Below are positions 1,055-60,377 of a DNA stretch of 64,000 bases, one piece after another (within the stretch, counting starts at the first letter, position 1; each line of letters begins with the position of its first letter). A program made the position numbers and the translations under genes. The notes beneath the pieces were generated by a model. It saw only the letters and a program-made list of their open reading frames with translations. It searched no databases and was not told where the DNA came from. Source of the DNA: Argopecten irradians (Eukaryota; Mollusca; Bivalvia; Pectinida; Pectinidae); assembly GCF_041381155.1 (NCBI RefSeq), contig NC_091134.1, positions 67,808,469 to 67,872,468 on the forward strand. Direction: 5' to 3'.

Positions 1055-1982
1055 TTTTTTTAGCTTGTCCGTCGTCTGTCGGTAAATAATGCTTGTTACC
1101 GCTATTTCTTGAGAAGTACTCCACAGATATGTCTCAAATTTTACATGCATGGTTCCCTTGATTTTCAGACTGATCGGAAAAACAATTTGGCCACCAGGCA
1201 GCCATCTAGGATTTTGGCAGTTGATGTTTGTTACCGCTATTTCTCAGAAAGCACTGAAGGGATCGGTCTCAAATTTAATATGTAGGTTCCCCTAGGCCGA
1301 ATGACCGCTATCTTGGATTTTCGATGTTTGAAGTTTATTACCACTATTGTTCATAGTGTACTGAAGGGATCTGTCTCAAATTCAATGTAGTGCAGGTTCC
1401 CCTTGGGCCCTAGTTGTGCATATTGCATTTTGGGACTGATTGGTCAACAATATGACCGACCCGCCGCCATCTTGGATTTTAGTATTTGTTTTAGAGTTTG
1501 TTCCCGCTATTTCTGAGAATTACTGAATGCATTTGTCTGAAATTTCATATGTAGGTTCCCCTAGTACCCTTATAGTGCATATTGCATTTTGGGACCAATT
1601 GTGCACAAGATGATGGCCGACAGGCCGCCATCTTGGAATTTACTATTTGAAGTTTGTTACCTCTATTCTCAGAAAGTACAAAAGGGATCTGTCTCAAAGT
1701 TCTTATGCAGGTTCTACTTAGGCCCATGTTGTGCATATTGCATTTGCTATATGAAGTTTGTTACCGCCATTTCTCAGAAAGTACAGAAGGGATCTGTCTC
1801 AAATTTCTGAGAAATTACAGAATGAATCTGTCTGTAGGGAGACATCGGTCTTCAATATGGCTGACTGACCACCATCTTTGATTTTATAGTAAATTTTGAA
1901 ATGCAGAGAAAAGATAAATCTTTCGGATATCAGACAGATCTTTTTTTGGTGGGCGCCAAGATCCCTTTGGGATCTCTTGGTT
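1055..1982 (+). repeat. Family D tandem-repeat element, left end degraded
   Basis: Tandem units of about 155 bp carry the family D signature: TGTTACCGCTATTTCTCAGA, GCAGGTTCCCCTAGG and a palindrome around GGCCGCCATCTTGG. The right end is intact in form, with GGTGGGCG, a hairpin AGATCCC/GGGATCT and then CTCTTGGTT. At the left only a short TTTTTTTAG and GTCCGTCGTC remain, and the hairpin is lost. Same orientation as the full copy at 17671. Confidence 0.85.
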
Positions 1983-2025
1983 ATAGCCCTTGAAAGTAAA
2001 GGGGATATTTTCATATTTCTCCAAT

Positions 2026-3215
2026 ATGTGGGCTAGAATGTCTATGTTGTCTTACATACAATGGTGGAGTAGATTTGGCGGGCTAGGATGTAAATGTCTC
2101 AGCCATACATTGGTGGAGTAGATTTGGCGGGCTAGGATGTAAATGTCTCAGCCATACAATGGTGGAGTAGATTTGGCGGGCTAGGATGTAAATGTCTCAG
2201 CCATACATTGGTGGAGTAGATTTGGCGGGCTAGGATGTAAATGTCTCAGCCATACATTGGTGGAGTAGATTTGGCGGGCTAGGATGTAAATGTCTCAGCC
2301 ATACATTGGTGGAGTAGATTTGGCGGGCTAGGATGTAAATGTCTCAGCCATACATTGGTGGAGTAGATTTGGCGGTCTAGGATGTAAATGTCTCAGCCAT
2401 ACATTGGTGGAGTAGATTTGGCGGGCTAGGATGTAAATGTCTCAGCCATACATTGGTGGAGAAGATTTGGCGGGCTAGGATGTAAATGTCTCAGCCATAC
2501 ATTGGTGGAGTAGATTTGGCGGGCTAGGATGTAAATGTCTCAGCCATACAGTGGTGGAGTAGATTTGGCGGGCTAGGATGTAAATGTCTCAGCCATACAG
2601 TGGTGGAGTAGATTTGGCGGGCTAGGATGTAAATGTCTCAGCCATACATTGGTGGAGTAGATTTGGCGGGCTAGGATGTAAATGTCTCAGCCATACATTG
2701 GTGGAGAAGATTTGGCGGGCTAGGATGTAAATGCCTCAGTCATACATTGGTGGAGTAGATTTGGCGGGCTAGGATGTAAATGCCTCAGCCATACATTGGT
2801 GGAGTAGATTTGGCGGGCTAGGATGTAAATGTCTCAGCCATACAATGGTGGAGTAGATTTGGCGGGCTAGGATGTAAATGTCTCAGCCATACATTGGTGG
2901 AGTAGATTTGGCGGGCTAGGATGTAAATGTCTCAGCCATACATTGGTGGAGTAGATTTGGCGGGCTAGGATGTAAATGTCTCAGCCATACAGTGGTGGAG
3001 TAGATTTGGCGGGCTAGGATGTAAATGTCTCAGCCATACATTGGTGGAGTAGATTTGGCGGGCTAGGATGTAAATGTCTCAGCCATACATTGGTGGAGTA
3101 GATATGGCGGGCTAGGATGTCTATGTTGTTTCAGGCATACATTGGTGAGGTGGATTTGGAGCGCTAGATGTAGGATGTCTATGTTGTCTCGGCCATACAT
3201 TGGGGTGGGGTGGAT
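2026..3215. repeat. 49-bp minisatellite, about 24 units
   Basis: The unit starts around GGTGGAGTAGATTTGGCGGG and ends CTCAGCCATACATT. Its period is 49 bp, read from successive AGCCATACA positions. Inner units are almost identical, differing at single bases (ACATT, ACAAT or ACAGT at the junction). The first unit and the last two or three (after about 3100) are diverged, as expected for an array that grows from its interior. No coding potential. Confidence 0.95.
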
Positions 3216-3269
3216 TTGGTGGTCTTTGATGCCAATATTGTCTTTATTTGTCTGGTAAAATGCAGTGTG

Positions 3270-3395
3270 TATGTCAAGATCAAGTTCAAAGATCGCGGCC
3301 ACGAAAACGCGACGACCAATCAGAGAGAGTAAAAAATCATCACTATAGCTAGAAGCGATCTCATTAGCATATCGTCACGTTCCTAAAAACATGGT
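3270..3395 (+). promoter_or_regulatory. Promoter-like module, upstream copy
   Basis: This stretch aligns with 4412-4525 just upstream of the cryptochrome start. Shared pieces, in the same order, are ATGTCAAGATCAAG, an ACCAATCAGA CCAAT box (3315-3320), an octamer-like ATTAGCAT (3363-3370) and GTCACGTT (CACGTT at 3376-3381). The sequence between them is diverged. Promoter activity is inferred from motif content and position, not shown. Confidence 0.5.
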
Positions 3396-3837
3396 CTAAA
3401 TCGGGGAAAGTACAGCAAATTATGGGGTGTTGTATCAAAGCAGTGTGATTGGAGACTGCTGCTAAAGTAGCATTGAAATATTGGAAATACTATATAGCAA
3501 GAAGTATATAGGATTGGGAACAAATCTATTTTGTAGCCTGTGGTCTACCTAATAGTATACTTTTTTCGTTGTAACTGGGCGGAAACTGGAACAAGTTAAT
3601 TTTTCCTTAGATTACTATTGAAAACCCTCAGGTTTGATGAATTAGATAAGCCGTGGAAGCCACTTAATTGGACAAACATTTATGACGCCTTACATTTAGA
3701 TGGCTTCAAGATGTTTGTCATAATGGGGCTTGTAAATCGTCTTAATGACGGCACATTGTATAGATGTATAGGATGATTTTGAAAGGAAAATTATGCTCTT
3801 TCCAACGGTAGTAACCGTTTTTTTATAGCCGCTAAAG

Positions 3838-7800: not shown

Positions 7801-10800
7801 TTTGAATCCCTATCTGGTAGCTTCATTGCCCCCTTTCCTGTTACAAACTTGGCACCTAACTAAAATAATACCCACTTTGGTGGTATAATTAAGAGTCTCT
7901 CATGTCTTTGAGGGCAAAGACTTTGAAAAGGGAAGGAGGATTGTAGCTGGATTGGACTAGCTCCATCATTGGTGACCAGATAGGTCAATCGATAGAGCAT
8001 CTGGTCTGTATTCGGAGGTCCTAGGTTCAAATCATGGTCTGACTACTACATTTTCTCCTCTCCTATAGTGAGTAAATTTATTTAGATTGACCATACATTA
8101 TCATGCAAATCAATCTCTTGCTAGATCTTTGATCATGATATTTGTATAAAATAATCGAAGCAGGTCACAATCTGTGTGGCTGCAGATCCATTTTGATATT
8201 GCTCCTTAAAAATTGTTCTAAAGTTGTATGCCTTATAAGCAGTTATTACAACAAATATGTCTTGGATTTTTAAGTCCAATTGTCGTCAAATAAGAAAAAA
8301 AAAACATAATTTTGGAGGGATATGTCATAATAGATAACTGAAAAGTTGTAAACATTACATTTTCCAGTTACAGTAGGACTTGTCAAGTTATTTTACAACA
8401 TATCCAGGGTATTGATGAAAGATTCACCTATAGAGCCTTAGTGTTTGTACCTTAGATTTGCTAAATTATGTTTTTTTCTTTATTTCAGATTCTTGCTTCA
8501 GTGTTTAGAAGATTTGGATTGTTCACTGAGAAAGCTAAATTCTCGGCTGTTTGTTGTTCGTGGCCAACCAACAAATGTCTTTCCACACTTATTTAAGGTA
8601 CAACATTAATTAGAAAATTAGAATGCCAAATACCTTTTACACAGGTTCTGTGTGCTTGAAAACTTAAAAGCATGTAAAAATATGGTATATCCTTGGGGAA
8701 CGGGAATAGAGTATGTATTAATTTTGGCTTTAACCCACGGGGGCAGGAGGGGCGGGCCCAATAGGGGGAAAAGAGGTAAATCCTTTAAATCGCTACTAGT
8801 CATAGAGTTCTGCATGGAATGTAACCAAATTTGGCCAGAAACATCCTTTGGGAAAGGGAACAGAGTGTGTATAAATTTTGGCTCTGGCCCCCTGGGGGCA
8901 GGAGTGGTAGGTTAAGAGGTAAATCTTTAAATTTCTTCAGAAAAGAAACAATGATCCTGTATTCAGAAGGTTACTTGGCATTACAATAACCAGGTGAGCG
9001 ATACAGGCCCTCTGGGCCTCTTGTCTTTTACTCTAATCATAATGTTCCTTTAGTATTAAGGGTCCCATATATATATACCTGTAACCATGGTACTGTACAG
9101 AAATCTAATTACAATGATCATTATAAAGATACAAATGGTAAAATTTATATCTGTTGCAATGGTTTATATAAATTTATTTCATTTTGAAGTAGCTATACAC
9201 TGTGTATAGGGTAGTTTTCGTATCAAAATGCTTATTGTTAATACATGTAGTTATTTTATATCATTTTATTTGCATGTAATCTTGAATTTTAAAATTCATA
9301 TGATGTCTTTGAGACCCACATTGTTTAATCTTAAGAGTCCATATAGTTTAGGTTCAGAGATTTGTATCGGAGGAACCCCATATCAGAAAAATTTCACCCT
9401 TTGTTATCATTTGTGTTTAGGAATGGAATATCACAACATTGTCGTTTGAGGAAGACTCTGAACCATTCGGGAAGGAGAGGGATGCTGCTATCAAGGCCTT
9501 GGCCTCAGAAGCTGGTGTTGAGACCATTGTCCGCATCTCACATACCCTTTACGATTTACAAAAGTAAGTTACGCATACTTATTACAATTGCAACATGTGC
9601 TTGACTCATTCAAATATCCTGTGCAGCTCCAGTGTTAGTGATAATGTGTTGGTATGGTGAGGAATTGATGGTCTACATTACATATATATCAGGCTATTCA
9701 AATGGTGTAAACGAATTATGCTAGTGTAAATAGTGTTTCCATTATTAAGATATATCTTACATATATATATGAACATAAGGTACAGTCAAACCTGTTTAAA
9801 GTGACCTTCCAATGGATGTTCAAAATAAGGTCGCATAAGAAAGGTGGTCACTTAAGACAGGGTCAATAATGAAAATAATTACGTACCAGATGCATGGTTA
9901 ATAGTAAAATGCTCCATTGGGACGCATAATTACATCGTGATTTACATTGTACATGTCAAAATTGAATGTTTTACTCGTCGATGTATCAAAGTTATACATT
10001 AGAATAATCTATGTAAAAGTGTCTAAAAGAAATAATATCAACTGGAAATATGATAAAGATGGATATAATTACGTACCAGAAGTATGATCAATCGCAAAAT
10101 GCTTTAATTCACGGAAATTTTGCCAACTGAAGCGTACACTGTAGCTGTTTACAATGACAATTATCAAGAAAAAAAAAGTCAAAAATTATGAAATATCAAT
10201 ACACAAGTTATTTGTATTATTTAAATCATGTACGTTTGATAAATGGTAGTGCACGATATTGGTGACATCGTCTCAAAATACACATAACCTTTACTTAAAG
10301 CATTGTTCTTTTCTTTTCATATACCTACATCATATTTTATATCATTGAAAATGTTTTTTATTAGGTTACCTGAGACGAAGTCTCATAGTGACCTATTCCA
10401 ATCTCATTTTGTCCGTCGTCATCCGTCGTACGTGTGCGACGATAAAACTTCATTTTCGACTTCTTCTCCAAAACTGCAGAAGCAATTTCAATGAAATTTT
10501 GTACAAACCTTCAAAGGCATAAGACCAATCAAAATTGTGAATTATATGGTCCCCACCTCTCAGAGGGGAGAGGCCAAAAGGGGTAAAATTAACTAAAATT
10601 TCAAAAATGTTCTTCTCTACTCACAGATGTGGTAGAATCAAATACTCTTCATAGATAGAAAGCTTTAAGGTCCTTTACAAAAATTGTGAATTATGTGACC
10701 CTGGGGTCATTCGTTTCCCCATGGGGAGGGGGTTAAGTTTACCATAGTTATATAGGGAAAACATATTTTTGAGCATTATTCGGTCATTTGTGATAGGAAA

Positions 10801-13800
10801 TAATTCAAATGTTGTCAGAATTATCAGTATGAGATGGCCATTGAATCCTATTAACAAATTTTCCATGACTGACCTCCAGGGGCCTTATATATATGGGTGG
10901 GGTCAAATAGGCTAAAACTTAAAAAATCGCCTTCTGAAATTCTAGAAATGGTAGAATCAAATACTTTTCATAGATGGAAAGGTCTTAAGGTCCTTAAAGT
11001 GAATAGTCGGGCAAAGAAAACCAGTCTAAATGCGTTCATTGGCCTTCCAAAAGTTCTCGCATATTAATACGACGGCCAAGTTCTGTTTACGTTTCCCAGT
11101 TCTGACCATTAAAGTAAAGGAAAGTTGAAAGCATTGAAAGCGAGGCTGCGTGTAACCACGGACATAGTCAGCCGGGAGGACGTTTTAGGATTCCTATGCT
11201 TTAAATTAATTTCTTCTTACGCAGACAGATTTTGGCGAGAGATTTTATTTTTCTATTTCATAAGAAATTATACTGGATACATTCACACCATTTTTACCGA
11301 CTTTAGCCATCCTTGCCCGACTGTTCACTTTAACGAAAATTGTGAATTATATGACCCTTGGGTCTTGTGTTTCCCCGTGGGGAGGGGGTTAAGTTTCGCG
11401 TTTCCTCGTAGGGAGGGGGTTAAGTTTACTATAGTTTATATAGGGAAAACACATTTTTGAGCATTTTTTGGTCATTTGTAATAGGAAATAATTCAGATGT
11501 TGTCAGGGGTCAAAAGGGGTCAAATAGGCTAAAACTTCCAAAATCGTCTTCTAAAACTTTGAAATTGGTTGAATCAAATACTCTTTGTAGATGGAAAGGT
11601 CTAAAGGTGTTTTATAAAATTGTGAATTATATCACTCTGGGTCTCATTTTTCCCCCTCAGTGAGGAGGGGTCAAGTTTTTTATAGTTTATTTAGGAAGAA
11701 CACATTTATGAACATTTTTTGCTCAATTTTCATAGGAAATGAGTCAAACTTGGTTAGAGTTAATTATTTGCCTGAGATATAGAAGTTTCATATCCATATC
11801 AGTCCTCGCTGACTCCCTGGGTGACCAGAGGGGCGGGACAAAACAGGGTCAAAATTACTAAAACATTTCTGAGTTCACAGGATTGATGGAAACAAATTCT
11901 CTTCATAGATTAAAAAGTCAAGTTTGTAAAATCACTGACCAACATCAAATGCCAGTATATAGTGTTTATGTGTCTTTCTTTTATTCTATATCTGTAGTCA
12001 GGTGACCGTTAAGGCCCATGGGCCTCTTGTTAGCTCACTTGCCATCAATTGATTGAGTTGAGAGGCAAACAATCCCAATATACTGATTGTCTGATGTATG
12101 GTTATTACATCCTTAGCCTCCAACTAAAGTTCATTCAAAAGTTACACTAGGATGATATCATTGGTCCTTTACCAAAGGGAGACTTCTCAAATTTTCATTT
12201 ACAAAAACAAATCTGTATAAATCTGATGACGGACTCCGGTTGTTTTCCCCAGAATCATAAACCTAAACTATGGAGTATCACCTCTTACGTACAAGCGGTT
12301 CCAGATGTTCATCTCTAAGATGGACCCACCTAAACAGCCAGTGGACACCATCACCGCTACTTATCTAGGAAAATGTCGCACACCGCTGAGTGAAGACCAT
12401 GATGAACACTATGGAGTCCCCACGCTGGAGGAGCTGGGATTCGAAACAGAAGGTCTCAAACCTGCGGAATTTCGTGGAGGAGAGATGGAGGCACTGTCAC
12501 GTCTTGAACGTCACTTAGAGAGAAAGGTACCACATACTCTGATTTTTCGTTTTGCTTTTCTGATCTTTTATGCTTGAGTTTGATTGTTGTATTGGTGAAA
12601 TTCTTCAAGAAGGATTAACATATATTTTGTATGTTATGGAGGTGTAACATTTAAAATGGGAATATTCTTGAAATAAGCTTTGTTTATGACAAGAAAATAA
12701 AAATCCTTATTTTTGTGTTTTAGTTTTATAGCATAGTTAATCCTAATAAGCTTTGATCCTTTTGAAAATATATGATTTTAAGTTTGTGGACTTGTACAGT
12801 GATTGGTGTGTATCATGTGTGGACTTTGATAGGAGTTTTCACTGTAAAAGTGATACTTTGTCTTAAAAGCTTTAAGTACCTAGTGCATTGCTACAGACAG
12901 TCTTCATTCAGCTTCATGTTCACATCAATTAGATCATTACTGGGTAGTAATAGTAAATGTTTTACAAGATACACATGAAACTGGCCAATTTAACACCTTG
13001 TAACAAATGTGAAAAGGATACTTAGGTTATTAGAATGCTTGCTCCTGTCCTGCTAGTTCTTATGAAGGATACTTCGGTCATTAGAATGCATGTTCCTGTC
13101 CTGTCTTGTACTTATCATATGAAATAATTGTAGGTGCCTTCTTTTCTGAAGAATTTTGTTTAAAAATTAGAAATTGAATTCTATTAACAGGTATTTTCAT
13201 GATCAAGTCATACTTATCATGTTCAAGAGATGGTTTTTGTGTCGCCTGTAATGCAAATACCAGTACGCCTGGGAAAAGGTTTCCATGCACGATAACTTAA
13301 ATATTTATAGTCCAATTTCAACCAAATTTGGTATATTGCTTGGATGATTTCGATACTGTTCAAAATCTGTCAATATTTCCAAGAGTTACGGGACTTTAAA
13401 ATCGTCAAAACAGATAAATCCATGGTCTGCTCGATAACTTTAGTATTTATTGCCCGATTTCAACCAAATTTGGTTTATTGCTTTATATCAATGAGATCTC
13501 CAATGGGTTTAATACTGGTCAAAATTCGTCAATATTTTCGAGAGTTATGGGACTTTAAAATCTTCAAAATAGATAAATCCATGGTTTCCGCTCGATGACT
13601 TTAGTATTTATTGTCTGATTTCAACCGGTTTATTGCTTTATATTAATGATATCTCGGATTAGTTTGATACTTGCCAAAATATGTTAATACTTGCAAGAGT
13701 TACAGGACTTTAAAATCGTCAAAACAAAGAATTTCTTAGTTTCAGCTCAATGTCTTTTGTATTTATTATCCAATTTCAACCAAATTATATATATCGCTTT

Positions 13801-16800
13801 ATATCAATGAGATCTAAGATTGATTTGATACTGGTGAATATCCGTCAAAATTTGCAAGAGTTACGTGACTTGATAACTTCACCTAATTATTAACAATATT
13901 TTCAACTGTAAATTTGAACTATTTTTTGTGATGTTTTAAACTGCTGTGCAAGCGACACATCCACTTCCGTGGAATTCTTGTTATTGCTTAATTTTCATGG
14001 TCTATATTTGAAACATTTGTATTCAGTTTTGAAGTTGCATTTTAATATAAAACTAGTGATTTTTCAGGCTAAAGCTGCCTTTGGTTTTATGATAATAATG
14101 ATACAGCTCCAGTTAATATTTATAACAGTGACTGTTGCTGGGATGCTGATCTCTCACTTGTTAACTTCCAAGCATGTACTGACATACTGCTGACTGGAGT
14201 GCTATGGTAATCTGTGTCTAAAGTGGAATCATGCTGTTGTCATGGATTCAACGCTTAAATTTTGTGTCCTTCACTTCATAATACAAGGAAGGTCAAAGAG
14301 ATGCTATGATCTTCCTTGCATTATGACCTGCCATTGGATGAAATAATGTTCTCTTATAGTTGTTTACTCAATCTTTGATAAACTTAATAATTACTTGTTT
14401 CATAGAAATTTTGTAATTTTACTTTATCAATGAAACAAGTTTTTTTTTTTTAATTTCAATAACATGATCACTATTTATGCACTGTTGTATTAAGTTTATA
14501 TTGTTATTTATATTTGATAAATAAAATTGTACACCACTTTTATTGTTTTTGTTTCAGGCATAGAAGCATTGTGGTACTTTGAGCTAGATTAGGATATATT
14601 TGTGTGTTATTTATTGTAGGCCTGGGTAGCCAGCTTTGAGAAACCAAAGATGACCGCACAATCATTATTCCCCAGCCAAACTGCTCTTAGTCCCTACCTG
14701 AGGTTCGGTTGTTTGGCACCACGTCTGTTCTATTGGAAACTAGCAGAACTGTACAGAAAGGTAACCATGCTCACATCGAATTTCACTACAAAACATTCCG
14801 AAAGAAAGTGACTTTAGTTTCAAAATTACATAATTACATACATTGAACTTTGTGTCCTGCCATGAAATGTGGAGCAAATAGAGTTACATGTCATGTTTAT
14901 ATACGTATGTTTATATTGAAACTTCATTCATGTAAAAGATTTTAATGAGATTCATGCTAAAATGAAATGGTTTTATCCCACAGGTGAAAAAGCAATCAGA
15001 TCCCCCGCTATCTCTCCATGGTCAACTGTTATGGAGGGAATTTTTCTATACAGCTGCTACCAATAATCCCAACTTTGATCAGATGAAAGATAACCCTATC
15101 TGTGTGAAAGTACCGTGGGATCACAACCCTGAGGCTCTAGCTAAGTGGGCAGAGGTGAGTGTAAGCTGTAATTGACCACACAAAGTACGCTTTCCATTAC
15201 ATTATGTATTTCTAGTTTCCTTTCTGGTAATATATCATCTTGACTTTCAACATCATTATCAAAAGTGGTTTCAGATTTGCATTTTTAGGTCATCTGACCC
15301 AAAGGGTCAGGATGACCTATTGTCATCATGCACCGTCCGTCGTCGTGCGCCGTCCGCCGTCCGCCGTCCGTAAACTTTTCATTCAAACGACTTCTTCTCA
15401 ATAACCGGAAGGCCCAGGGTACTCATATTTGGCCTGTAGGTTGCTGGGATGGAGGGCTACCAAGTTTGTTCAAATAAATGACCTTGACCTTCATTCAAGG
15501 TCACAGGGGTCAAAAAGGCTAAAATCTTTAAACGACTTCTTCTCAAGAACCAGAAGGCCCAGGGTACTGATATTGGGCCTGTGACATGCTGGGATGAAGG
15601 GCTACCAAGTTTGTTCAAATAAATGACCTTGACCTTCATTCAAGGTCACAGGGGTCAAATAGGCTAAAATCCTTTAAAAAACTTCTTGTGAATAACTAAG
15701 AGGCCTGGAGACCTGATATTAGGCCTGTGGCATGCTGGGATGAAGGGCTACCAAGTTTGTTCAAATAGATGACCTTGACCTTCATTCAAGGTCACGAGGG
15801 TCAAATAGGCTAAAATCTTTAAACAACTTCTTCTCAAGAACCAGAAGGCCCAGGGTACTGATATTAGGCCTGTGACATGCTGGGATGAATGGCTACCAAG
15901 TTTGTTCAAATAAATGACCTTGACCTTCATTCAAGGTCACAGGGGTCGAATAGGCTAAAATCCTTTAAAAAACTTCTTGTGAATAACTAAGAGGCCTGGA
16001 GACCTGATATTAGGCCTGTGGCATGCTGGGATGAAGGGCTACCAAGTTTGTTCAAATAGATGACCTTGACCTTCATTCAAGGTCACGAGGGTCAAATAGG
16101 CTAAAATCTTTAAACGACTTCTTTTCAAGAACCAGAAGGCCCAGGGTACTCATATTGGGCCTGTAGCATGCTGGGATGAAGGGCTACCAAGTTTGTTCAA
16201 ATAAATGACCTTGACCTTCATTCAAGGTCACAGGGGTCAAATAGGCTAAAATCCTTTAAAAATCTTCTTGTGAATAACTAAGAGGCCTGGAGACCTGATA
16301 TTAGGCCTGTGGCATGCTGGGATGAAGGGCTACCAAGTTTGTTCAAATAAATGACCTTGACCTTCATTCAAGGTCACGGGGGTCAAATAGGCTAAAATCT
16401 TTAAACGACTTCTTTTCAAGAACCAGAAGGCCCAGGGTACTGATATTGGGCCTGTGACATGCTGGGATGAATGGCTACCAAGTTTGTTCAAATGAATGAC
16501 CTTGATCTTCATTCAAGGTACCGGGGTCAAATAGGCTAAAGTCTTTAAATGACTTCTTCTCAAGAACCAGAAGGCCCAGGGTACTGATATTGGGCATGTA
16601 GCATGCTGGGATGAAGGGCTACCAAGTTTGTTCAAATGAATTACCTTGACCTTCAATCAAGGTCACGGGTCAAATAGGCTAAAATCTTTAAACGACTATG
16701 TTGTATTGTACTAATAGTCAGATGACCGTTAAGGCCCATGGGCCTCTTGTTAGTGTATATATACTATTGTCTCCGTTACAGGGTATGACAGGTTATCCAT

Positions 16801-19800
16801 GGATTGATGCTATCATGCGTCAGTTAAAACAGACAGGCTGGATACATCACTTAGCCAGGCATTCCGTAGCTTGTTTCCTCACTCGAGGTGACTTGTGGAT
16901 CTCATGGGAGGAGGGCATGAAGGTAAATATACTAACTAGCCATGCCATGTCGATATGCCTCAAGGAAATTTCAAAATTGAAATACGTTGAAATAATGTTC
17001 TATGAAAGATTCCTTGAGGCTTCAAATTCTGTGCCAAATCAGTTTAGAACTTGAACAATGATTAATTCTTACATTCACCATGGTCAACATGTCATTTTTG
17101 ATTGTGTATTATTGTACCTGTACTTGATGAATGTCTGTAATATTTCTTCGTGCTACCTGTAGTTCCAGGTATTTGATGATATTGTATAATTTTACGTGTG
17201 TTACCTGTATTATTTCATCTGTGTTACCCGTATTCCCAGGTATTTGATGATATTGTATAATTTTAATGTATTACCTGTATTTTCAGGTGTTTTGATGAAC
17301 TAGTATAATTTCATCTGTGTTACCTGTATTCCCAGGTATTTGATGAAATAGTATTATAATTTTACGTGTGTTACCTGTATTTCCAGGTGTTTGATGATAT
17401 TGTATAATTTTACCTGTGTTACCAATATTTCCAGGTGTTTGATGAACTATTACTGGATGCTGACTGGAGTGTGAATGCTGGCATGTGGATGTGGCTTTCC
17501 TGTAGTTCATTTTTCCAGCAGTTTTTCCACTGCTACTGTCCAGTGGGATTCGGGAAGAGGGCTGATCCTACTGGTGATTTTATCAGGTAACTAACCATTA
17601 TCATTATATTGTATGTCTTTTGCTAAGATTGATATCTACCAGTGAATGGAACTTCTGTTTATCTGAGCATTTTTAGCCCACCATCATCAGATGGTGGGCT
17701 ATTCAAATCGCCTTTCGTCCGTGGTCCGTGGTCCGTGGTCCGTTCCGTCCGTCCGTCCGTTAACAATTCTTGTTACCGCTATTTCTCAGAAAGTACTGAA
17801 GGGGTCTTTCTTAAATTTCATATGCAGGTTCCCCTAGGACCGTAGTTGTGCATATTGCATTTTGGGACCGATCAGTCAACAAGATGGCCGACAGGCGGCC
17901 ATCTTGGATTTTGATAGTTAAAGTTTGTTACCGCTATTTCTCAAAACGTACTGAACGGATCTTTCTTAAATTTCATATGCAGGTTCCCCTAGGACCCTAG
18001 TTGTGCATAATGCAATTTGGGACCGATCGGTCAACAAGATGGTCGACAGGCGGCCATCTTGGATTTTGATAGTTAAAGTTTGTTACCGCTATTTTTCGGA
18101 AAGTACTAAAGGGATCTTTCTCAAATTTCATATGCAGGTTCCCCTAGAACCCTAGTTGTGCATAATGCAATTTCGGACCGATCGGTTAACAGGATGGCCG
18201 ACAGGCGGCCATCTTTGATTTTGATAGTTAAAAGTTTGTTACCGCTATTTCTCAGAAAGAACTGAAGGGATCTTACTCAAATTTCATATGCAGGTTCCCC
18301 TTGGACCCTAGTTGTGCATATAGCATTTTGGGACCAATCGGTCAACAAGATGGTTGCCAGGCGACCATCTTGGATTTTGATAGTTAAAGTTTGTTACTGC
18401 TATTTCTCAAAAAGTACTAAAGGGATCTTTTTCAAATTTCATATATAGGTTCCCCTAGGGCCCTAGTTGTGCATATTGCATTTTGGGACCGATCGGTCAA
18501 CAAGATGGCTACCAGGTGGCCATCTTGGATTTTGGTAGTGGAAGTTTGTTACCACTATTTCTCAGAAAGTATTGAAGGGAACTCAAGCAAATTCCATACA
18601 CAGGTTCCTCTAGGGCCCTAGTTATGCATAATGCGTTTTGGGACCAATCGGTCAACAAGATGGCCGCCTGGCAGCCATCTTGGATTTTGATAGTTAAAGT
18701 TTGTTATTGCTATTTCTTAAAAAGTACTAAAGGGATCTCTCTCAAATTTTATATGTAGGTTCCCTTAGGACCTTAGTGGTGCATATTGCATTTTGTAACT
18801 GATAGGTCAACAAGGTGGCTGCACGGCCGCCAGCTTGGATTTCATTGTTGAAGTTTGTTACCACTATTTCTTAGAAAGTACAATAGCGATCTGTCTCAAA
18901 TTTTATATGTAGTCGTGTTTGAAAAAGTTTGAAAAGCAGGGAAAAGATCCCTCTTTCCATTGTCAGACATAGATCATTCTTTGGTGGGCGCCAAGATCCC
19001 TCTGGGATCTCTTGTTTAAAATCTTAGATATCTGTCTTCAGGATTTGACAAATCTCTTTGAGAAACTTGTATTTATAGGTGTTGATAATCATCTGTGAAA
19101 AAGCAGATTAACCTTGGTTAATCAGGAGATGAAACTGTAGAGTATCGAGTTGGGGATTCTGGTTTTGTTATACTAAAGAAATGTTTTTATCTGTTTGGTG
19201 ATTCAATAGCAGCAGGATAGGAAAATTGTAATAAACAGGCGAATAATTCCAGGATGTAGGCTTGGCATTATGCATAAAGCAAAGTCCAGTTTTATTTCAG
19301 TTGATTATGACAAAATTAGTGATGAAATCATTTTTATCAATTACATTATTTTGAAAATTATATCTTGCTCACCTGGCCCGAAGGGCCGGTGAGCTTTGTC
19401 ATGGCGCGGCGTCCGTCGTCCGTCGTCCGTCCGTCGTCCGTCCGTCCGTCCGTCCGTCCGTCAACATTTCCTTTAAATTGCTACTAGTCATAGAGTTCTG
19501 GATGGATTGTAACCAAATTTGGCCACAAACATCCTTGGGGGAAGGAGAACAGAACTTGTATAAATTTTGGCTCTGACCCCCCGGGGGCAGGAGGGGCGGG
19601 GCCCAATAGGGGAAATAGAGGTAAATTCTATAAATCGCTACTTGTCCTAGAGTTCTGCATGGATTGTAACCAAATTTGGCCAGGCACATCCTTGGGGGAA
19701 GGGGAACAGAACTTGTATAAAATTTTGGCTCTGACCCCCCGGAGGCAGGAGGGGCGGGGCCCAGTAGGGAAATAGAGGTAAATTCTATAAATCGCTACTT

Positions 19801-40046: not shown

Positions 40047-40695
40047 AACAAGAGGCCCAGAGGGCCTGTATCGCTCACCTGGTTTGTAATGTCAAGTCAT
40101 GTTCTGAAGACAGGTTCATTGTTTCTTTTCTGAAGGAATTTGAATATTTACCTCTTATTTCCCTATTAGGCCCCGCCACTCCTGCCCCCGGGGGGTCAGA
40201 GCCAAAATTTATACAAGTTCTGTTCCCCTTCCCCCAAGGGTATTTGTGGCCAAATTTGGTTACAATCCATGCAGAACTCTAAGACAAGTAGCGATTTATA
40301 GGATTTACCTCTATTTTCCCTATTGGGCCCCGCCCCTCCTGCCCCCTACGGGTCAGAGCCAAAATTTATACAAGTTCTGTTCCCCTTCCCCCAAGGATGT
40401 TTGTGGCCAAATTTAGTTACAATCCATGCAGAACTCTAAGACAAGAAGCGATTTATAGGATTTACCTCAAATTCCCCTATTGGGCCCCACCCCTCCTGCC
40501 CCCGGGGGGGTCAGAGCCAAAATTTATACAAGTTCTGTTCCCCTTCCCCCAAGGATGTTTGTGGCCAAATTTGGTTACAATCCATGCAGAACTCTATGAC
40601 AAGTAGCGATTTAAAGGAAATGTTGATGGACAGACAGACACCGGACGCCGCGCCATGACATAAGCTCACCGGCCCTTCGGGCCAGGTGAGCTAAA
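40047..40695 (-). repeat. Family A element, about 3 units
   Basis: Both termini are present: AACAAGAGGCCCAGAGGGCC at 40047, and the hairpin AGCTCACC-GGCCC-TTC-GGGCC-AGGTGAGCT followed by AAAAA. The CCGTCC-type stretch is reduced to a short CAGACAGACACCGGACGCCG. Confidence 0.94.
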
Positions 40696-41203: not shown

Positions 41204-42970
41204 AACAAGAGGCCCAGAGGGCCTGTATCGCTCACCTGGTTTGTAATAACAAGTAATGTTCTAAATACAGGTTCATTGCTTCTTTTCTGAAGGAATTCGA
41301 ATATTTACCTCAAATTCCCCTACTGGGCCCTACCCATCCTGCCCCCGGGGGGTCAGAGCCAACATTTATACAAGTTCTGTTCCCCTTTCCCCATGGATGT
41401 TTGTGGCCAAATTTGGCCACAATCTATGCAGAACGCTAGGACAAGTAGCAATTTATAAGATTTACCTCTATTTCCCCTATTGGGCCCCGCCCCTCCTGCC
41501 CCCGGGGGGTCAAAGCCAAACTTTGTACAAGTTCTGTTCCCCTTCCCCCAAGGATGTTTGTGGCCAAATTTGGTTACAATTCATGAAGAACTCTAGGACA
41601 AGTAGCAATTTATAGGATTTACCTCTATTTTCCCTATTGGGCCCCGCCCCTCCTGCTCCCGGGGGGTCAGAGCCAAACTTTATACAAGTTCTGTTCCCCT
41701 TCCCCCAAGGATGTTTGTGGCCAAATTTGGTTACAATCCATGCAGAACTCTAGAACAAGTAGCGATTTATAGGATTTACCTCTATTTCCCCTATTGGGCC
41801 CCGCCCCTCCTGCCCCCGAGGGGTCAAAGCCAAACTTTGTACAAGTTCTGTTCCCCTTCCCCCAAGGATGATTGTGGCCAAATTTGGTTACAATCCATGC
41901 AGAACTCTAGGACAAGTAGCGATTTATAGGATTTACCTCTATTTCCCCTATTGGGCCCCGCCCCTCCTGCCCCCGAGGGGTCAAAGCCAAACTTTGTACA
42001 AGTTCTGTTCCCCTTCCCCCAAGGATGATTGTGGCCAAATTTGGTTACAATCCATGCAGAACTCTAGGACAAGTAGCGATTTATAGGATTTACCTCTATT
42101 TCCCCTATTGGGCCCCGCCCCTCCTGCCCCCGGGGGGTCAGAGCCAAACTTTATACAAGTTCTCTTCCCCTTCCCCCAAGGATGTTTGTGGCCAAATTTG
42201 GTTACAATCCATGCAGAACTCTAGGACAAGTAGCAATTTATAGGATTTACCTCTATTTCCCCTATTGGGCCCCACCCCTCCTGCCCCCGGGGGGTCAGAG
42301 CCAAACTTTATACAAGTTCTGTTCCCCTTCCCCCAAGGATGTTTGTGGCCAAATTTGGTTACAATCCATGCAGAACTCTAGGACAAGTAGCGATTTATAG
42401 GATTTACCTCTATTTCCCCTATTGGGCCCCGCCCCTCCTGCCCCGGGGGGGGTCAGAGCCAAACTTTATACAAGTTCTGTTCCCCTTCCCCCAAGGATGT
42501 TTGTGGCTAAATTTGGTTACAATCCATGCAGAACTCTAGGACAAGTAGCGATTTATAGGATTTACCTCTATTTCCCCTATTGGGCCCCGCCCCTCCTGCC
42601 CCCGGGGGGTCAGAGCCAAACTTTATACAAGTTCTGTTCCCCTTCCCCCAAGGATGTTTGTAGCTAAATTTGGTTAAAATCCATGCAGAACTCTAGGACA
42701 AGTAGCAATTTATAGGATTTACCTCTATTTCCCCTATTGGGCCCCGCCCCTCCTGCCCCCGGGGGATCAGAGCCAAACTTTATACAAGTTCTGTTCCCCT
42801 TCCCCCAAGGATGTTTGTGGCCAAATTTGGTTACAATCCATGCAGAACTCTATGACTAGTAGCGATTTAAAGGAAATGTTGACGGACAGACGGACGACGG
42901 ACGACGGACGGACGACGGACGCCGCGCCATGACATAAGCTCACCGGCCCTTCGGGCCAGGTGAGCTAAAA
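41204..42970 (-). repeat. Family A element, about 10 units
   Basis: The cleanest family A array. Units repeat at exactly 157 bp (ATGTTTGTGGCC starts at 41397, 41711, then every 157 bp to 42496), nearly identical in the middle. Both termini are present. The open frames seen in it have no protein character and follow only from low stop density. Confidence 0.95.
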
Positions 42971-43901: not shown

Positions 43902-45340
43902 AACAAGAGATCCCAGAGGGATCTTGGCGCCCACCAAAGATTGATCTATGTCTGACAAATGAAAGAGGGATCTTTTCTCTGCTTTTCAAACTTACACTTC
44001 TTTTTTCTGCTTTTCAAACTTTAAACTATCAAAATCCAAGATGGTGGTCGCAAAATGCAATAGGCAGAACTAGGGTCCTAGAGGAACCTACATATGATAT
44101 TTGAGAACAATCCCTTCAATACTTTCTGAGAAATAGCGGTAACAAACTTTAACTATCAAAATCCAAGATGGCTACCGGTCGGCCATTTTGTTGACCGATC
44201 AGTCCCAAAATGCAATATGCACAACTGGGGTCCTAGGGGAACCTACATATGAAATTTGAGAAAGATCCCTTCAGTGCTTTCTGAGAAATAGCGGTAACAA
44301 ACTTTAACTATCAAAATCCAAGATGGCTACCTGGCGGCCATCTTGTTGACTGATCAGTCCCAAAATGCAATATGCACAACTGGGGTCCTAGGGGAACCTA
44401 CATATGAAATTTGAGAAAGATCCCTTCAGTACTTTCTGAGAATTAGCAGTAACAAACTTTAACTATCAAAATCCAAGATGGCGGCTGGTCGGCCATCTTG
44501 TTGACCGATCAGTCCCAAAATGCAATATGCACAACTAGGGTCCTATGGGAACCTACATATGAAATTTGAGAAAGATCCCTTCAATACTTTTTGAGAAATA
44601 GCGGTAACAAACTTTAACTATCAAAATCCAAGATGGCTGCCTGGCGGCCATCTTGTTGACAGATCAGTCCCAAAATACAATATGCACAACTAGGGTCCTA
44701 GGGGAACCTACATATGAAATTTGAGAAAGATCCCTTCAGTGCTTTCTGAGAAATAGCTGTAACAAACTTTAACTATCAAAATCCAAGATGGCTACCTGGC
44801 GGCCATCTTGTTGACCGATCAGTCCCAAAATGCAATATGCACTACTAGGGTCCTAGGGGAACCTACATATGAAATTTGAGAAAGATCCCTTCAGTACTTT
44901 CTGAGAATTAGCCGTAACAAACTTTAACTATCAAAATCCAAGATGGCGGCTGGTCGGCCATCTTGTTGACCCGATCAGTCCCAAAATGCAATATGCACAA
45001 CGAGGGTCCTAGGGGAACCTACATATGAAATTTGAGAAAGATCCCTTCAGTACTTTCTGAGAAATAGCGGTAACAAACTTTAACTATCAAAATCCAAGAT
45101 GGCTACCTGGCGGCCATCTTGTTGACCGATCAGTCCCAAAATACAATATGCACATCTAGGGTCCTAGGGGAACCTACATATGAAATTTGAGAAAGATCCC
45201 TTCAGTACTTTTAGAGAAATAGCGGTAACAAGAATTGTTAACGGACGGACGGACGGACCGGACGGAAGGACGGACGGACGACGGACCACGGACGAAAGGC
45301 GATTTGAATAGCCCACCATCTGATGATGGTGGGCTAAAAA
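43902..45340 (-). repeat. Family D element, full length, about 8 units
   Basis: The + strand opens AACAAGAGATCCCAGAGGGA, CTTGGCGCCCACC (right end inverted). Units of about 155 bp follow, with TAGCGGTAACAAACTTTAAC and the AAGATGGC/GCCATCTT pair. A (GGAC)n stretch and the hairpin AGCCCACCATC-TGAT-GATGGTGGGCT then TAAAAA close it. Confidence 0.94.
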
Positions 45341-51984: not shown

Positions 51985-52436
51985 TGTTCAATTTTTATTT
52001 TTAGGTATCACAATACTAAAATAAATTGAACACGGTGCATCAATGCACCACCATGCGATGCAATACATCAATGAATCACACCTCTACTATATATATTGCT
52101 ATAATAGCAATAAATAAACATGTGCCCAACCTGTATGTTGGTACAAGCTGGAAACCTCAGTGCGTAAGCGTGTACAAGATGGTAAAAACTGTCGACAGGC
52201 CATGGCCAGTGCCTGTTTGTAGTAATATACCGTACCAGCACTCGGCATGCCCTTCTACAGAAGTCAACTCGACCACTCATTAGAGCATGCCGAATGAATT
52301 GTCTACACGGCTACACTTTAATACCTGATCGTAGATGTGTGAAAGCTTCTATGGGCCCCCTCATCCCTATCTATAATGTGCCTATTAAATAATTCAATAA
52401 CAGTATTAAATAGGATTTTATGATATTGGAAATAAA
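51985..52436. other. No gene recognised
   Basis: Short frames on both strands show no family resemblance. No repeat was recognised. Confidence 0.35.
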
Positions 52437-53892
52437 ACAAGAGATCCCAGAGGGAATCCAAGGTGGCGGCCTATCAGCCATCTTGTTAATCTATCGGCCC
52501 AAAAATCCAATATGTACATCTAGGGCCCTAGAGTAACCTACAGATGATATTTGAGACAGATCCCTTAAGCATTTTCTGAGAAATTGCGGTAACAAACTTC
52601 AATTACCAAAATCAAAGACAGCGGCAGGTCGGCCATCTTGTTGACTGATCAGTCCCAAAATGCAATATGCACAACGAGGGTCCTAAGGGAACCTACATAT
52701 GGAATTATGAGACAGATCCCTTCAGTATTTTCTGAGAAATAGCGATAACAAACTTTAACTATCACAATCCAAGATGGCGGCCGGTCGGCCATCTTGTTGA
52801 CCGTTCTGTCCTAAAATGCAATACATGTATACACAACTAGGGCACTAGAGGAACCTACATATAAAATTTGATACAGATCCCTTCAGTACTTTCTGAGAAA
52901 TAGCGGTAAAAACTACTGAAATCCAAGATGGCGGTCTGTCGGCCATCTTGTTGCCCGATCTGTCCTAAAATGCAATATGCACAACTACGGCCCTTGTGGA
53001 ACCTATAGATGAAATTTAAGAAAAATAACTTCAGTATTTTTAATACATAGCTGTAACAAACCTCATGCAACTATCAAAATCCAAGACGGCGGCCTGTCGG
53101 CCATCTTGTTGACCGTTCTGTCCTAAAATGCAATATGCACGAGAGCCCTAGTGGAATCTACAGATGAAATTTGAGACAGATCCCTTCAGTACTTTCTGAA
53201 AAATAACGATAACAAACTTTAACTATCAAAATCCAAGATGGCGGCTTGTCGGCTATCTTGTAGACCAATCAGTCCCCAAATGTGATATGCACAACTAGGG
53301 GCCTAGGGGAACCTACATATATGGAATTTGCAGACATCGCGAAATTTGATGGTCTGACGGACATGTCCAGCAAAATTTTACTTGGACCGCCTATTTTAAA
53401 ATGCGGTCCGGACTGATCGTTCGACAATTATTAAGTACTGGAAGTCGGTAGAAATGGCGTCTCTGAAGTATTACGCAGGTGCCGAACCTGGCAAAAACGT
53501 AAACTGCATAAGATAATCATGAAAACAGCTGCCTGGATACTAATTGCAGGAAGCTATGTTTACTTCAAAACTTCACATTAATGTTCTTTAGTACTTTCTG
53601 AGAAATAGCGGTAACAAACTTTCAAAATCCAAGATGGCTGCCTGGCGACCATCTCGTTGACCGATCGGTCCTAAAATACAATATGGACAACATTAACTAG
53701 GGCCCTGTGGGAACCTACATATCAAATTTGAAAAAAAGATCCTTGTAGTACTTTCTGAGAAATAGCGGTAACAAGAATTGTTAACGGATTGACAGACGGA
53801 CAAAGGACAGACAGATGGGAGGACGGATGGATAACGGACCACGAATGAAAGGCGATTTGAATACAGCCCACAATATAACGATAGGCTGAAAA
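52437..53892 (-). repeat. Family D element, old copy with an insertion
   Basis: The right end inverted, AACAAGAGATCCCAGAGGGA, opens the element. Diverged 155-bp units with AAGATGGCGGC/GCCATCTTG follow, then a CGGACAAAGGACAGACAG stretch and a degraded left hairpin (CAGCCCACAATATAACGATAGGCTG). From about 53327 to 53585 the sequence is unrelated to the family and looks like an insertion. Confidence 0.85.
53327..53585. other. Unrecognised insertion inside a family D element
   Basis: Unit sequence stops after GGAACCTACATATATGGAAT and resumes at AGTACTTTCTGAGAAATAGC. Between them lie about 250 bp containing an inverted pair GGACCGC/GCGGTCC (near 53395). No target duplication could be defined. Confidence 0.5.
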
Positions 53893-54139: not shown

Positions 54140-54281
54140 TACTCATTTACTCAGAGAACGACGGTCAACGACCAAAACTGGAATACATGTTTTCCGTAAT
54201 GTATGGGACCGCTATCATGCCAATCAGATCACACAAATCGAAAAAATACAGCGCAGAGCAGCACGATATATGTATATCCAC
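54140..54281 (+). pseudogene. LINE ORF2 C-terminal fragment, left part
   Basis: The frame gives VWDRYHANQITQIEKIQRRA followed by ARYM. This is a diverged version of the VWDPYT...IEKVQRRAARFV segment after the reverse transcriptase domain of jockey/CR1/RTE-like LINEs. It is cut by a family E element. Confidence 0.7.
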
Positions 54282-55041
54282 AAGAGGCCCAAGGGCCTTA
54301 ACGGTCATCTGACTACCTTGGCAATAATCATATAGGAAATTAATTAGATATCGTGTCATGGTAGCCATCATCGATTTGGGATCAACCAGAGATGTAACAG
54401 CACTTTGTCAGGACCATGTCAGGATCATTTCATGCAAGTTTCAGCCAAATCACACCAGTAGATCTTGAGAAGAAGTCCCTCAAAATGTGTTATCAAGATG
54501 GTGGCTGTGGTGGCCATCTTGGATTTCAAATCAACCCGAAAAATAACAACACTTTGTCGGGACCTTGTCAGGATCATTTCATGCAAGTTTCAGCCAAATC
54601 ACAGCGTTAGAACTTGATAAGAAGTTCAAAATGTGTTTTCAAGATGGCGGCCATCTTGGATTTGGGATCAACCCAAAAAATAACAACACTTTGTCGAGAC
54701 CAATATGTCAGGATCATTTTATGCAAGTTTCAGCCAAATCGCACTGTTAGAACTTGAGAAGAAGTTCAAAATGTGTTTTCAAGATGGCGGCTGTGGCGGC
54801 CATCTTGTATTTCAGATCAACCCAAAAAATAACAATACTTTATACTTTGTCAGGACCATGTCAGGATCATTTCATGCAAGTTTCAGTCAAATCGCAATTG
54901 TAGAACTTGAGAAGAAGTTCAAGATCATTTCATGCAACTTCAAGTTTCAGCCAAAATTTCACTAGTAGAACTTGAGAAGAAGTTCAATATGTGAAGAGTT
55001 AACGCGGACGACGGACGAAACATGACGACTATAGGTCACTA
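54282..55041 (-). repeat. Family E element
   Basis: The + strand begins CAAGAGGCCCAAGGGCCTTA ACGGTCATCTGAC, a family C-like right end inverted. Four to five units of about 140-152 bp carry TCAGGATCATTTCATGCAAG, TTGAGAAGAAGTTCAAAATG and an AAGATGGCGGC/GCCATCTTG inverted pair. It ends GCGGACGACGGACG, then ATAGGTCACTAAAAA. The left hairpin is reduced to one arm. The units are unlike families A-D and F. Confidence 0.82.
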
Positions 55042-56368: not shown

Positions 56369-56399
56369 AGATAATTTAATTACTATCTAAATCTCTGGT

Positions 56400-57294: not shown

Positions 57295-57325
<31 letters not shown>

Positions 57326-58300: not shown

Positions 58301-58497
58301 GTCAATGGTGGCTGATCGGCGGGTTTTCTACGCGAAACCCGAAAAGGCGAGAAAATCAACAGAAAAGGCGCCGTTTAAGACTTTCTTTTTTTGTTAATCT
58401 CGCATTTTCGCGATTTTTTTTTCGCCTTTTCGTGTTAAAAATTACGCGACAATCCGCCGAGCGGAGGATTTTCTATGGTGGCTGATTTCTGCCGTAT

Positions 58498-59105
58498 AGT
58501 ATGGTGGCTGATTTCTGCCATTTCGCCTTTTCGCCGTTTCGCGTTGTTTCTTGTGCAACCCGACGTTCGGTGGATTGTCGCCTTCAATTTTCTACGCGAA
58601 AACCCGAAAAGGCGAGAAAATTAACTCGAAAAGGCGCCGTTTTAGACATTAAAAATTTCGACTTTTCGTGTAACTTTTTTCGCCTTTTCGTGTTGTAATT
58701 TACTAAAATTACGTAACAACCCGCCGAACGGCAGGTTTTCGCCTTGTAAACTTACGCGAAATGAATTAGACGACAACCCACCGAACGGCGCCTTTTCGCC
58801 TTCCGGAATGACATGCGTATATAAAACGAAAGTCAAGGCTACACTTTCAATGATTGGTGAAGTTCCATACTGTGCAGAAATAAAACAACACGTTTATAAG
58901 CTGAAATATGGAAGTATTTTGCAATTTCTTATCGAACGGTGAGTTGTCGCATAATTTTACAAGGCGAAAACCCGCCTCTGAAACCCACCGAACGGCGGGT
59001 TGTCGCATAAATTTACAAGGTGAAAAGCCATCGCCGAACGACGGGTTGTTGCGAATGTAAGAAACAGCGCGAAAAGGCGAAATGGCAGAAATCAGCCATC
59101 ATACT
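58498..59105. mobile_element. CpG-rich palindromic element with long inverted ends
   Basis: The left end reads ATGGTGGCTGATTTCTGCCA TTTCGCCTTTTCG. The right end carries its inverse complement (CGAAAAGGCGAAATGGCAGA AATCAGCCATCAT) with few mismatches; the similarity extends about 60 bp inward. The interior repeats CCGCCGAACGGCGGGTT and CGAAAAGGCG many times in both orientations. Related pieces lie just outside, at 58305-58480. No transposase frame was seen. Confidence 0.7.
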
Positions 59106-59367
59106 TTTGGCTTTGAGCTGACTGTTCGCCACTGGTCCAAAGACTGGATTTTGTCCCCTGGCCACATCCTCGATACTGCAGGGGTTACTATCACTGTCAT
59201 CATATGCACCCCTGGACTTTGCCATAGCAAATATGAAAGCTTTGTGTACGACAACAAATGGAACAGGTCTTTTGGTCCTGTGACGTACATCAAAAGAATC
59301 GAATGGCTTTGAAGTTGGGCGTCGTTCCCCACTTATCGGCATAGGCTGACTGTATAAGCCTGATACA

Positions 59368-60377
59368 AACAAGAGGCCCAGAGGACCTGTATCGCTCACC
59401 TGGTTTGAAATGCCAAGTAATGTTCTGAATACAGGTTCATTGTTTCTTTTGTAAAGTAATTTTAATATTAACCTCTAAATCCCCTATTGGGCCCCACACC
59501 TCCTGCCCCCAGGGGGTCAGAGCCAAAATTTATACAAGTTCTGTTCCCCTTCCCCCAAGAATGTTTATGGCCAAATTTGGTCACATTCCAAGCAAAACTC
59601 TAGGACAAGTAGCGATTTATAGGAGTTACCTCTATTTCCCCTATTGGGCCCCACCCGTCCTGCCCACGGGGGCCAGAGCCAAAATTTATACAAGTTCTGT
59701 TCCCCTTCCCCAAGGATGTTTGTGGCAAAATTTGATTACAATTCATGTAGAACTCTATGACTAGTAGCGATTTAAAGAATTTACCTCTATTTCCCCTATT
59801 GGGCCCCGCCCCTCCTGCCCCCGGGGGACCAGAGCCAAAATGTATACAAGTTCTGTTCCCCTTCCCCCCAAGGATGTTTGTGGCCAAATTTGGTTACATT
59901 CCATTCAGAACTCTATGACTAGTAGCGATTTAAAGGATTTACCTCTATTTCCCCTATTGGGCCCCGCCCCTCCTGTCCCTGGGCGATCAGAGCCAAAATT
60001 TATACAAGTTCTGTTCCCCTTCCCCCAAGCATGTTTGTTGCTAATTTTGGTTACAATCCATGCAACACTCTAGGACAAGTAGCGATTTAAAGGATTGACC
60101 TCTATTTCCCCTATTGGGCCCTGCCCCTCCTGCCCCCGGGGGGGGGGGGGGGGGGGGGGGGGGGGTCAGAGCCATAATTTATACAAGTTCTGTTCCCCCT
60201 CCCCCAAGGATGTTTGTGGCCAAATTTGGTTACAATCCATGCAGAACTCTATGACTAGTAGCGATTTAAAGGAAATGTTGACGGACAGACGGACGGACGG
60301 ACGACGGACGGACGGACGGACGACGGACGCCGCGCCATGACATAAGCTCACCGGCCCTTCAGGCCAGGTGAGCTAAA
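59368..60377 (-). repeat. Family A element, about 5 units, with expanded G tract
   Basis: Both termini are present (AACAAGAGGCCCAGAGGACC; hairpin GCTCACC-GGCCC-TTC-AGGCC-AGGTGAGC then TAAAAA). In the last unit the usual CCCCCGGGGGG core has grown to C5 followed by 28 G (60138-60165). Followed by (GGAC)n. Confidence 0.94.

Follow-up and report, generated by a model that had tools for sequence, protein, structure and literature searches.

Why should repeat families with different tandem units carry ends that match within each family and differ between families? We investigated this question in a stretch of 64,000 nucleotides from the bivalve Argopecten irradians (NCBI RefSeq assembly GCF_041381155.1, contig NC_091134.1, positions 67,808,469 to 67,872,468 of the forward strand), called the window below and lying on the contig denoted C1. 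Genome-wide counts and searches refer to the 846-Mb genome containing the window, and L-numbered loci are stretches fetched from outside the window and used beside its copies. The families are very probably HINEs (non-autonomous Helentron-type rolling-circle transposons) with satellite-like arrays, their ends being read by a Helentron protein. In these terms, the left arm is the 5′ subterminal inverted repeat (subTIR) and the right motif its 3′ counterpart, the 3′ subTIR; the inverted repeat (IR) corresponds to the inner hairpin arm on the left, and the termination palindrome to the hairpin before CTTG and TT.

Matching of the two ends

Five subTIR types were detected. The pairs are GCTCACCTGG/CCAGGTGAGC in family A, GGTCACCTGA/TCAGGTGACC in family B, and GGTCATCTGA/TCAGATGACC in family C, each 10 nt long; family D is complementary at 8 of 10 positions (7 in L023), and family F has GTGTCGCCTG on the left and an inferred right side, also of 10 nt, with one mismatch in each of two copies. 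A second array type, A2 (L017 and L033, outside the window), has the subTIR pair of A, with a different IR and an array that differs beyond a short patch. Units and ends are therefore not locked together, and the ends form a module apart from the array.

The window and the loci were scanned automatically, which yielded 24 left and 42 right ends; 17 left-right pairs were called, of which that at 17675-17906 was false. Complementarity summed over these pairs was 154, whereas 10,000 shuffles averaged 112.2 and reached at most 146. We also made a table by hand of 24 two-ended copies (16 good scan pairs and 8 found by eye; 13 in the window, 11 in the loci), which omits partnerless ends in the window (8970-9025, 19366, 30524-32206, 54279-54340, 1054-1981, and 52436) and in the loci (e.g., L023:2364, L021:1780, and L017:9196), as well as the 3-kb loci without a pair in the automatic scan (L004-L009 and L011). 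In this table, 225 of 240 positions were complementary (20,000 shuffles: mean 168.9, maximum 201), and 15 of the 24 copies were perfect over all 10. In 24148, 13239, and L014, the left end had been located through its complementarity to the right motif, which is circular; without these three rows, 199 of 210 positions were complementary, against a shuffle maximum of 188. Because the copies are not independent, the pairing was evaluated at the family level: the true pairing of family consensus sequences reached 48/50, the single best of 120 orders (next best: 46), and A to D alone reached 38/40, the single best of 24 orders (next best: 36). Such covariation is in itself expected of paired ends. 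A preliminary description of this DNA had stated that the end motifs differ between families yet stay paired, which the family-level result bears out, and that left arm and right motif are exact inverse complements in each family, which holds over 10 nt in A, B, and C but not in D, and in F depends on the inferred right side.

Differences between left ends were mirrored on the right in A-B (2/2), A-C (3/3), and B-C (1/1), and likewise when F, with its inferred right side, was compared with A, B, and C (7/7, 8/8, and 8/8); D was mirrored at only 2/4, 3/5, and 4/6 positions against the same three families, and at 6/7 against F. This pattern bears on the possibility that matched ends reflect shared ancestry only, each family descending from one perfect-inverted-repeat master and its pair not being kept by selection. 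All 10 family A rows are identical at both 10-nt motifs and thus not independent, and there are only five subTIR types, as such descent would have it. However, A, B, and C share related ends, with one to three differing positions and every change mirrored, so that change at both ends would have been needed; moreover, IR and arrays did change between A and A2. We therefore regard ancestry alone as unlikely. In three window copies of B, the left arm has changed (to GGTTACC in two and to GGACACC in one) and the right end does not follow, as in decayed copies.

Another explanation is that the two ends pair directly as nucleic acid, the 10-nt 5′ subTIR binding the 3′ subTIR in a displaced strand or circle and setting the geometry of cleavage or joining, with the left hairpin as the alternative fold. 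Ungapped complementarity of the 5′ subTIR was higher with the 3′ subTIR than with the IR in 18 of 22 scorable copies, the left hairpin being interrupted by a bulge or mismatch that has no counterpart in the right motif. The calculated duplex of the left arm with its own right end (−12.4 to −16.0 kcal/mol in A, A2, B, C, and D, the ends of A and A2 being identical) was stronger than that with its own IR in 5/5 cases, by 0.3 to 4.6 kcal/mol; duplexes with the right end of another of these families ranged from −4.0 to −10.7 kcal/mol. Nevertheless, the same pattern would be predicted if one protein bound an identical site at the two ends, and a modelled junction (right end, TTT, left end) kept the local left hairpin in 5/5 cases (A, A2, B, C, and D), with no end-to-end stem. 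The remaining four scorable copies (three of D and B at 28105) show the opposite trend. Part of the end match is local, since the right motif also repeats the inner hairpin arm on the left. Direct pairing consequently seems improbable to us. The preliminary description had concluded that the ends recognize each other or are recognized together; the pairing stands, but mutual recognition is only one reading of it, and one protein binding both ends fits equally, as it would in any inverted-repeat element.

Families and copies in the window

Each left end consists of a T-rich stretch (often ATTTTT or TTATT), A, the 5′ subTIR, an inner stem, the IR, a GTCC/CCGTC stretch, and the array. The left hairpin is imperfect near the same place in most copies outside family D: A is one IR base short, A2 and C contain an additional base, a mismatch occurs in B, and F pairs over 7. 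Right ends start with the 3′ subTIR and a brief spacer, which is CGATAC in family A, CGTTA in B and C, and CGCCA in D. The hairpin that follows is AGGCCC-TCT-GGGCCT in family A and AGGCCC-AT-GGGCCT in families B and C, with AGATCCC-TCT-GGGATCT in family D and TCCAC-TTCC-GTGGA in family F; next come CTTG and, mostly, TT. Among 41 right ends, all at filled sites, T follows CTTG at +1 in 39 and at +2 in 37. The copies in the window are as follows.

41204..42966, reverse strand: family A, complete; left AGCTCACCTGG hairpin, GTCC stretch, 157-bp array, right CCAGGTGAGC with hairpin and CTCTTGTT
36651..38113, reverse strand: family A, complete
40047..40692, reverse strand: family A, both ends
59368..60374, reverse strand: family A, both ends; one mismatch in the right hairpin
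34072..34676, reverse strand: family A, both ends; shortened left hairpin
19366..21566, forward strand: family A, with left end and array; at the 3′ side, subTIR and hairpin are deleted but TCTTGTT remains; copied left-flank DNA in the tail
8970..9025, forward strand: family A, right end only; CTCTTGTC
10363..12031, forward strand: family B; left GGTTACCTGA, right TCAGGTGACC
28105..28578, forward strand: family B, short; left GGTTACCTGA, right TCTGGTGACC
35695..36277, reverse strand: family B; left GGACACCTGA, right TCAGGTGACC
24148..26091, forward strand: diverged B (family E of the preliminary description), with CGTCAACCTGA on the left and TCAGGCTGACC on the right; 81% identity between its array and that of B over 439 nt
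15287..16751, forward strand: family C, complete; GGTCATCTGA / TCAGATGACC, 145-bp array
30524..32206, forward strand: family C, array and right end; left end missing; adjoins a 51-bp tandem array (29711-30510)
54279..54340, reverse strand: family C, right end; CTCTTGTG
17675..19016, forward strand: family D; GCCCACCATC hairpin, right TTTGGTGGGC, 155-bp array
43902..45335, reverse strand: family D, complete
1054..1981, forward strand: family D copy; left hairpin lost (T-run, AGCTTGTCCGTCG), array diverged, right terminus CTCTTGGT
52436..53700, reverse strand: family D, truncated; lacks the 3′ subTIR but retains an imperfect right hairpin; left end not found, upper border approximate
13239..13982, forward strand: family F; left GTGTCGCCTG (hairpin lost), 155-bp array, right CAAGCGACAC with hairpin and TTCTTGTT

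The preliminary description had counted six unrelated families with one terminal plan. The plan is shared, but E was rejected as a separate family, since its array aligns to that of B and its ends are faulty B ends; calling the families unrelated also goes too far, because besides the related ends of A, B, and C, patches of 40-71 nt are common to the B/C, A2/A, and A2/B(E) arrays. For D and F, no cross-family match was found at E 1e-3.

The window contains 15 occurrences of the terminal motif CTCTTGTT, where 2.33 would be expected, and none of 100 shuffles reached this number. By script, a hairpin directly precedes 11 of the 15 sites; at two further sites, 59375 and 52443 (both reverse strand), a mismatched hairpin was recognized by eye, and the subTIR of 52443 is deleted. 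The sites 7639 and 33999 were rejected as right ends, neither having an adjoining hairpin plus subTIR. Five additional right ends in the window have an altered terminus (1974, 9018, and 13975, and 35702 and 54286 on the reverse strand). Counts of left-flank bases were not used, opposite-strand readings of the same hairpins being included in them. In the whole genome, the exact pattern AGGCCC-N2/3-GGGCCTCTTGTT occurs 5154 + 5286 = 10,440 times as the core of A/B/C-type right ends, and its reversed form does not occur.

Several arrangements of copies were observed. In the family A copy at 19366, the left flank (19300-19364) recurs in order in its right part (21365-21447; 35/38 and 27/30 nt), mixed with element sequence as template switching would leave it. 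At L004:1521 and L007:1500, two loci much alike, an A2 left end starts right after the CTCTTGTT of another element (CTCTTGTTAGCTCACC), as if A2 had inserted into the TT closing an older element. Three complete A/A2 elements with an extra left and an extra right end lie in one orientation within 10 kb at L017:1880-9740.

The window also contains pieces of a photolyase/cryptochrome gene and a PTB-domain gene. Long arrays have units of 49 bp (2055-3180), 25 bp (22077-23845), and 51 bp (29711-30510). A 1112-base stretch (4863-5973) is repeated 64 bases further at 6037-7148 with 99.9% identity, between two photolyase exons, and is either a recent duplication or an assembly artefact.

Class assignment and a Helentron with the A-type 3′ end

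The elements have the features of HINEs: an inverted subTIR pair (10 nt in A, B, C, and F, the right side of F being inferred, and 8 in D), an IR next to the 5′ subTIR with a GTCY-type microsatellite (in A, A2, B, C, and D; the IR of F is lost in the window copy and present in the L014 copy), and a palindrome before CTTG near the 3′ end (AGGCCC..GGGCCT, AGATCCC..GGGATCT, or TCCAC..GTGGA). Coding capacity was absent among frames of at least 120 aa: eight such frames in or running into the elements had no match to a Pfam family, and a ninth (16692-17054) is a photolyase exon overlapping the end of a C element. Canonical Helitrons, which have 5′ TC, 3′ CTAG (CTRR), and insertion between A and T (PMC7992393, in the part consulted), are rejected, the ends here being T-stretch/AG and CTTG before TT.

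An end shared with a Helentron was found for the 3′ end of family A, the tails examined being those of L038 and L037. There are 104 matches to PF14214 (Rep) in the genome, some of them pieces of one element, and none in 14 control genomes. A single frame in L038 (2364 aa as fetched) contains Rep (PF14214, 1.6e-25), PIF1 helicase (1.1e-21), and endonuclease (Exo_endo_phos, 5.7e-7) in one protein, the combination that characterizes Helentrons; GSPH, a Helentron-type residue motif (PMC4067079, in the part consulted), was seen in L037. The L038 tail CAGGTGAGCGATACAGGCCCTCTGGGCCTCTTGTT, 8.3 kb after the start of the Rep match, has the 3′ end of family A without the family A array or tail, so that both 3′ subTIR and palindrome are seen in the L038 family. 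We searched the genome with a 701-base query from this tail, and 40 of 344 candidates were scored. Among these matches were 15 other copies of the tail, of which 8 stop exactly at query base 575, the last T of CTCTTGTT, and 11 stop within 571-577; of the remaining copies, two stop at 580-581 and two earlier (553 and 491). The other matches were short pieces, lone right ends, or a repeat flanking the L038 copy. Of the 15 scored tail copies, 11 lie 7.5-8.5 kb from a Rep match on the same strand. Because the tail copies stop at CTCTTGTT, the A-type 3′ end is the 3′ terminus of a Helentron family, and it is identical to that of family A over the last 35 nt.

This terminus also bears on whether the families are conventional cut-and-paste elements of the miniature inverted-repeat transposable element (MITE) kind. 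They have short inverted repeats near their ends, and pearl elements and DINE-1 were formerly classed as such, according to the literature consulted in part. However, the 3′ repeat is clearly internal, the hairpin and CTTG stand at one end only with TT after, and the A-type end terminates a Rep/helicase/endonuclease element. We consider a MITE origin highly unlikely.

The region upstream of the Helentron frame is more complex. A D left end and about four D units (L039:906-1577, at C11:11363409) are fused to the Helentron body upstream of L038. Among 40 of 3426 candidates scored for this junction, 11 other copies start aligning exactly at the boundary between D and body, and others at 12, 15, and 81; three such copies and C376 share native sequence just upstream of the junction. 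L039:906 was therefore rejected as the native Helentron 5′ end: 12 other places have a different upstream sequence in common, so the D end is a secondary replacement. L039:1577 was also rejected as a 5′ terminus, its only support being a gapped 10-nt match equalled in 107-135 of 2000 shuffles. The D array-body junction has a second copy at C1:21272272-21273548 (95% identity with the array, 99% over 831 bases, nearly all body), which may have either moved or been duplicated.

Several observations weigh against the assignment of the families to HINEs with Helentron-read ends. Over its last 60 nt, the Helentron matches family A at only 41 and 43 positions, including a single terminal run of 35, which is below the 80% identity used as a subfamily rule (PMC4067079, in the part consulted). 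In its other copies, the body at C11:11363409 is preceded by a different 5′ region and closes with the A-type 3′ end; if the chimera of D end and Helentron moved, the ends need not match strictly. In all three D copies, complementarity of the left arm with its own IR exceeds that with its own right end. A 3′ end was sought for the second Helentron, in L037, and none was obtained. The native 5′ end was not reached in a 500-base upstream search, whose alignments at 12 other places run up to 1-6 bases from the L041 upstream edge. The autonomous Rep-Helicase partner that the preliminary description had proposed to look for is thus found from its 3′ end, the A-type end terminating a Rep/helicase/endonuclease element, but not as far as its native 5′ end.

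A tandem array of roughly 76-base units (counted by eye) follows the Helentron frame at L038:7480-8840, so the autonomous element carries an array too. The Helentron frame at L037:2-4093 has a Pfam match to Herpes_teg_N (E 2e-11), which we take to be an OTU-like protease region, upstream of Rep. Pattern scans gave 0 and 1 matches in viral contigs and 2 in genome contigs, none of them useful; the left-end pattern in these scans was narrow and matched three family A copies of the window. L001 resembles a terminator-type hairpin and has no matching left end upstream, and L002 and L003 resemble chance matches.

Known systems and the proposed transposition

The comparisons below refer to the parts of the cited papers that were consulted. 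The HINE/Helentron assignment of the preliminary description is upheld by the anatomy, which follows Cg_HINE and DINE-1 down to the order of the parts. The oyster (Crassostrea gigas) Cg_HINE elements (PMC7492417) likewise have a 5′ and a 3′ subTIR, an IR complementary to the former, a GTCY/GTCC-type microsatellite, an array with units mostly of 140-180 bp, a palindrome, and a T-rich/TT site; some of them combine related ends with unrelated arrays, and in their group 2, as here, the ends form a module. They differ in sequence, in subTIR length (11-12 there, at most 10 nt here; 12-15 bp in mite, PMC4067079), and in that no related autonomous Helentron was found there, whereas here the A-type 3′ end terminates one. 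Drosophila DINE-1 (PMC2374699), for which insertion at TT is described, is alike in its type-specific paired subTIRs, partial or interrupted IR, GTCY microsatellite, unrelated central repeats, and 3′ stem-loop; unlike the present elements, it has 13-bp subTIRs and a conserved core of more than 90 bp, nothing comparable having been noticed here without a dedicated search. The Helentrons and HINEs of mite, Culex, and Drosophila (PMC4067079) share the subTIR pair, the 3′ palindrome, a variable number of terminal Ts, and ends in common with Rep/helicase/endonuclease elements, but HINEs there are deletion derivatives with 84-99.9% identity (mite) to their partners, whereas only the last 35 nt are common here. 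Bivalve pearl elements, DTC84, and MgE (PMC7492417, PMC5139131) are likewise modular, with short arrays of ~160-bp units, the comparison here being one of modules.

The suggestion in the preliminary description that the covariation may be new does not hold, since DINE-1, Helentron, and oyster HINE families with such ends are already in print (PMC2374699, PMC4067079, PMC7492417). DINE-1 subTIRs differ by species or type (three types in D. willistoni) yet stay paired (Table 1 of PMC2374699), Helentron families are defined by subTIR (PMC4067079), and oyster HINEs have element-specific subTIR changes among 11 element types in one genome (PMC7492417). Compensation between the two ends was not found named in the literature searched, supplementary tables and most subscription papers being outside its scope. 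In the parts consulted, “compensat” and “covari” do not occur in PMC7492417; PMC4067079 has no “covar” and “compensat” twice, one of these passages being on dosage compensation; PMC2374699 has no “covar” and “compensat” once, on the 3′ stem-loop thought to be maintained by compensatory change. Family-specific paired subTIRs are thus implicit in published DINE-1, HINE, and Helentron families, and the plan has been described in flies, mites, and oysters. The present analysis usefully adds that a gene-carrying Helentron family in the same genome also terminates in one of these end types.

The individual steps of Helentron transposition are not known to have been established. We propose that a Helentron protein, supplied in trans, would read subTIR and hairpin and act at the T-rich/TT site at the 5′ end. 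A single strand would then be displaced, replication would halt at the 3′ subTIR plus hairpin, and the displaced strand would join a new TT. If only copies with both ends readable by one protein multiplied, the matched pair would be kept in each family, and array and IR would be free to change. A more speculative version, which we think has a small chance of being right, makes the 10-nt pair a physical end-to-end lock: at a set point of rolling-circle transposition, the 3′ subTIR would have to base-pair with its own 5′ partner or be bound jointly with it, in competition with a deliberately flawed local hairpin, and the subTIR type would decide which Helentron moves which HINE, several types coexisting in one genome.

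If matched ends are also true of the Helentron itself, they imply a 5′ end with a T-stretch and a GCTCACCTGC-type subTIR. For the oyster HINEs, no relation to an autonomous Helentron could be established (PMC7492417, in the part consulted), and the scallop genome lets one ask whether subTIR type sets partner choice, a link left unresolved there. With at least five subTIR types, more than 10,000 A/B/C-type right ends, and long-frame Helentrons ending in one of these types, this genome offers a way to ask which parts of the ends a Helentron reads.

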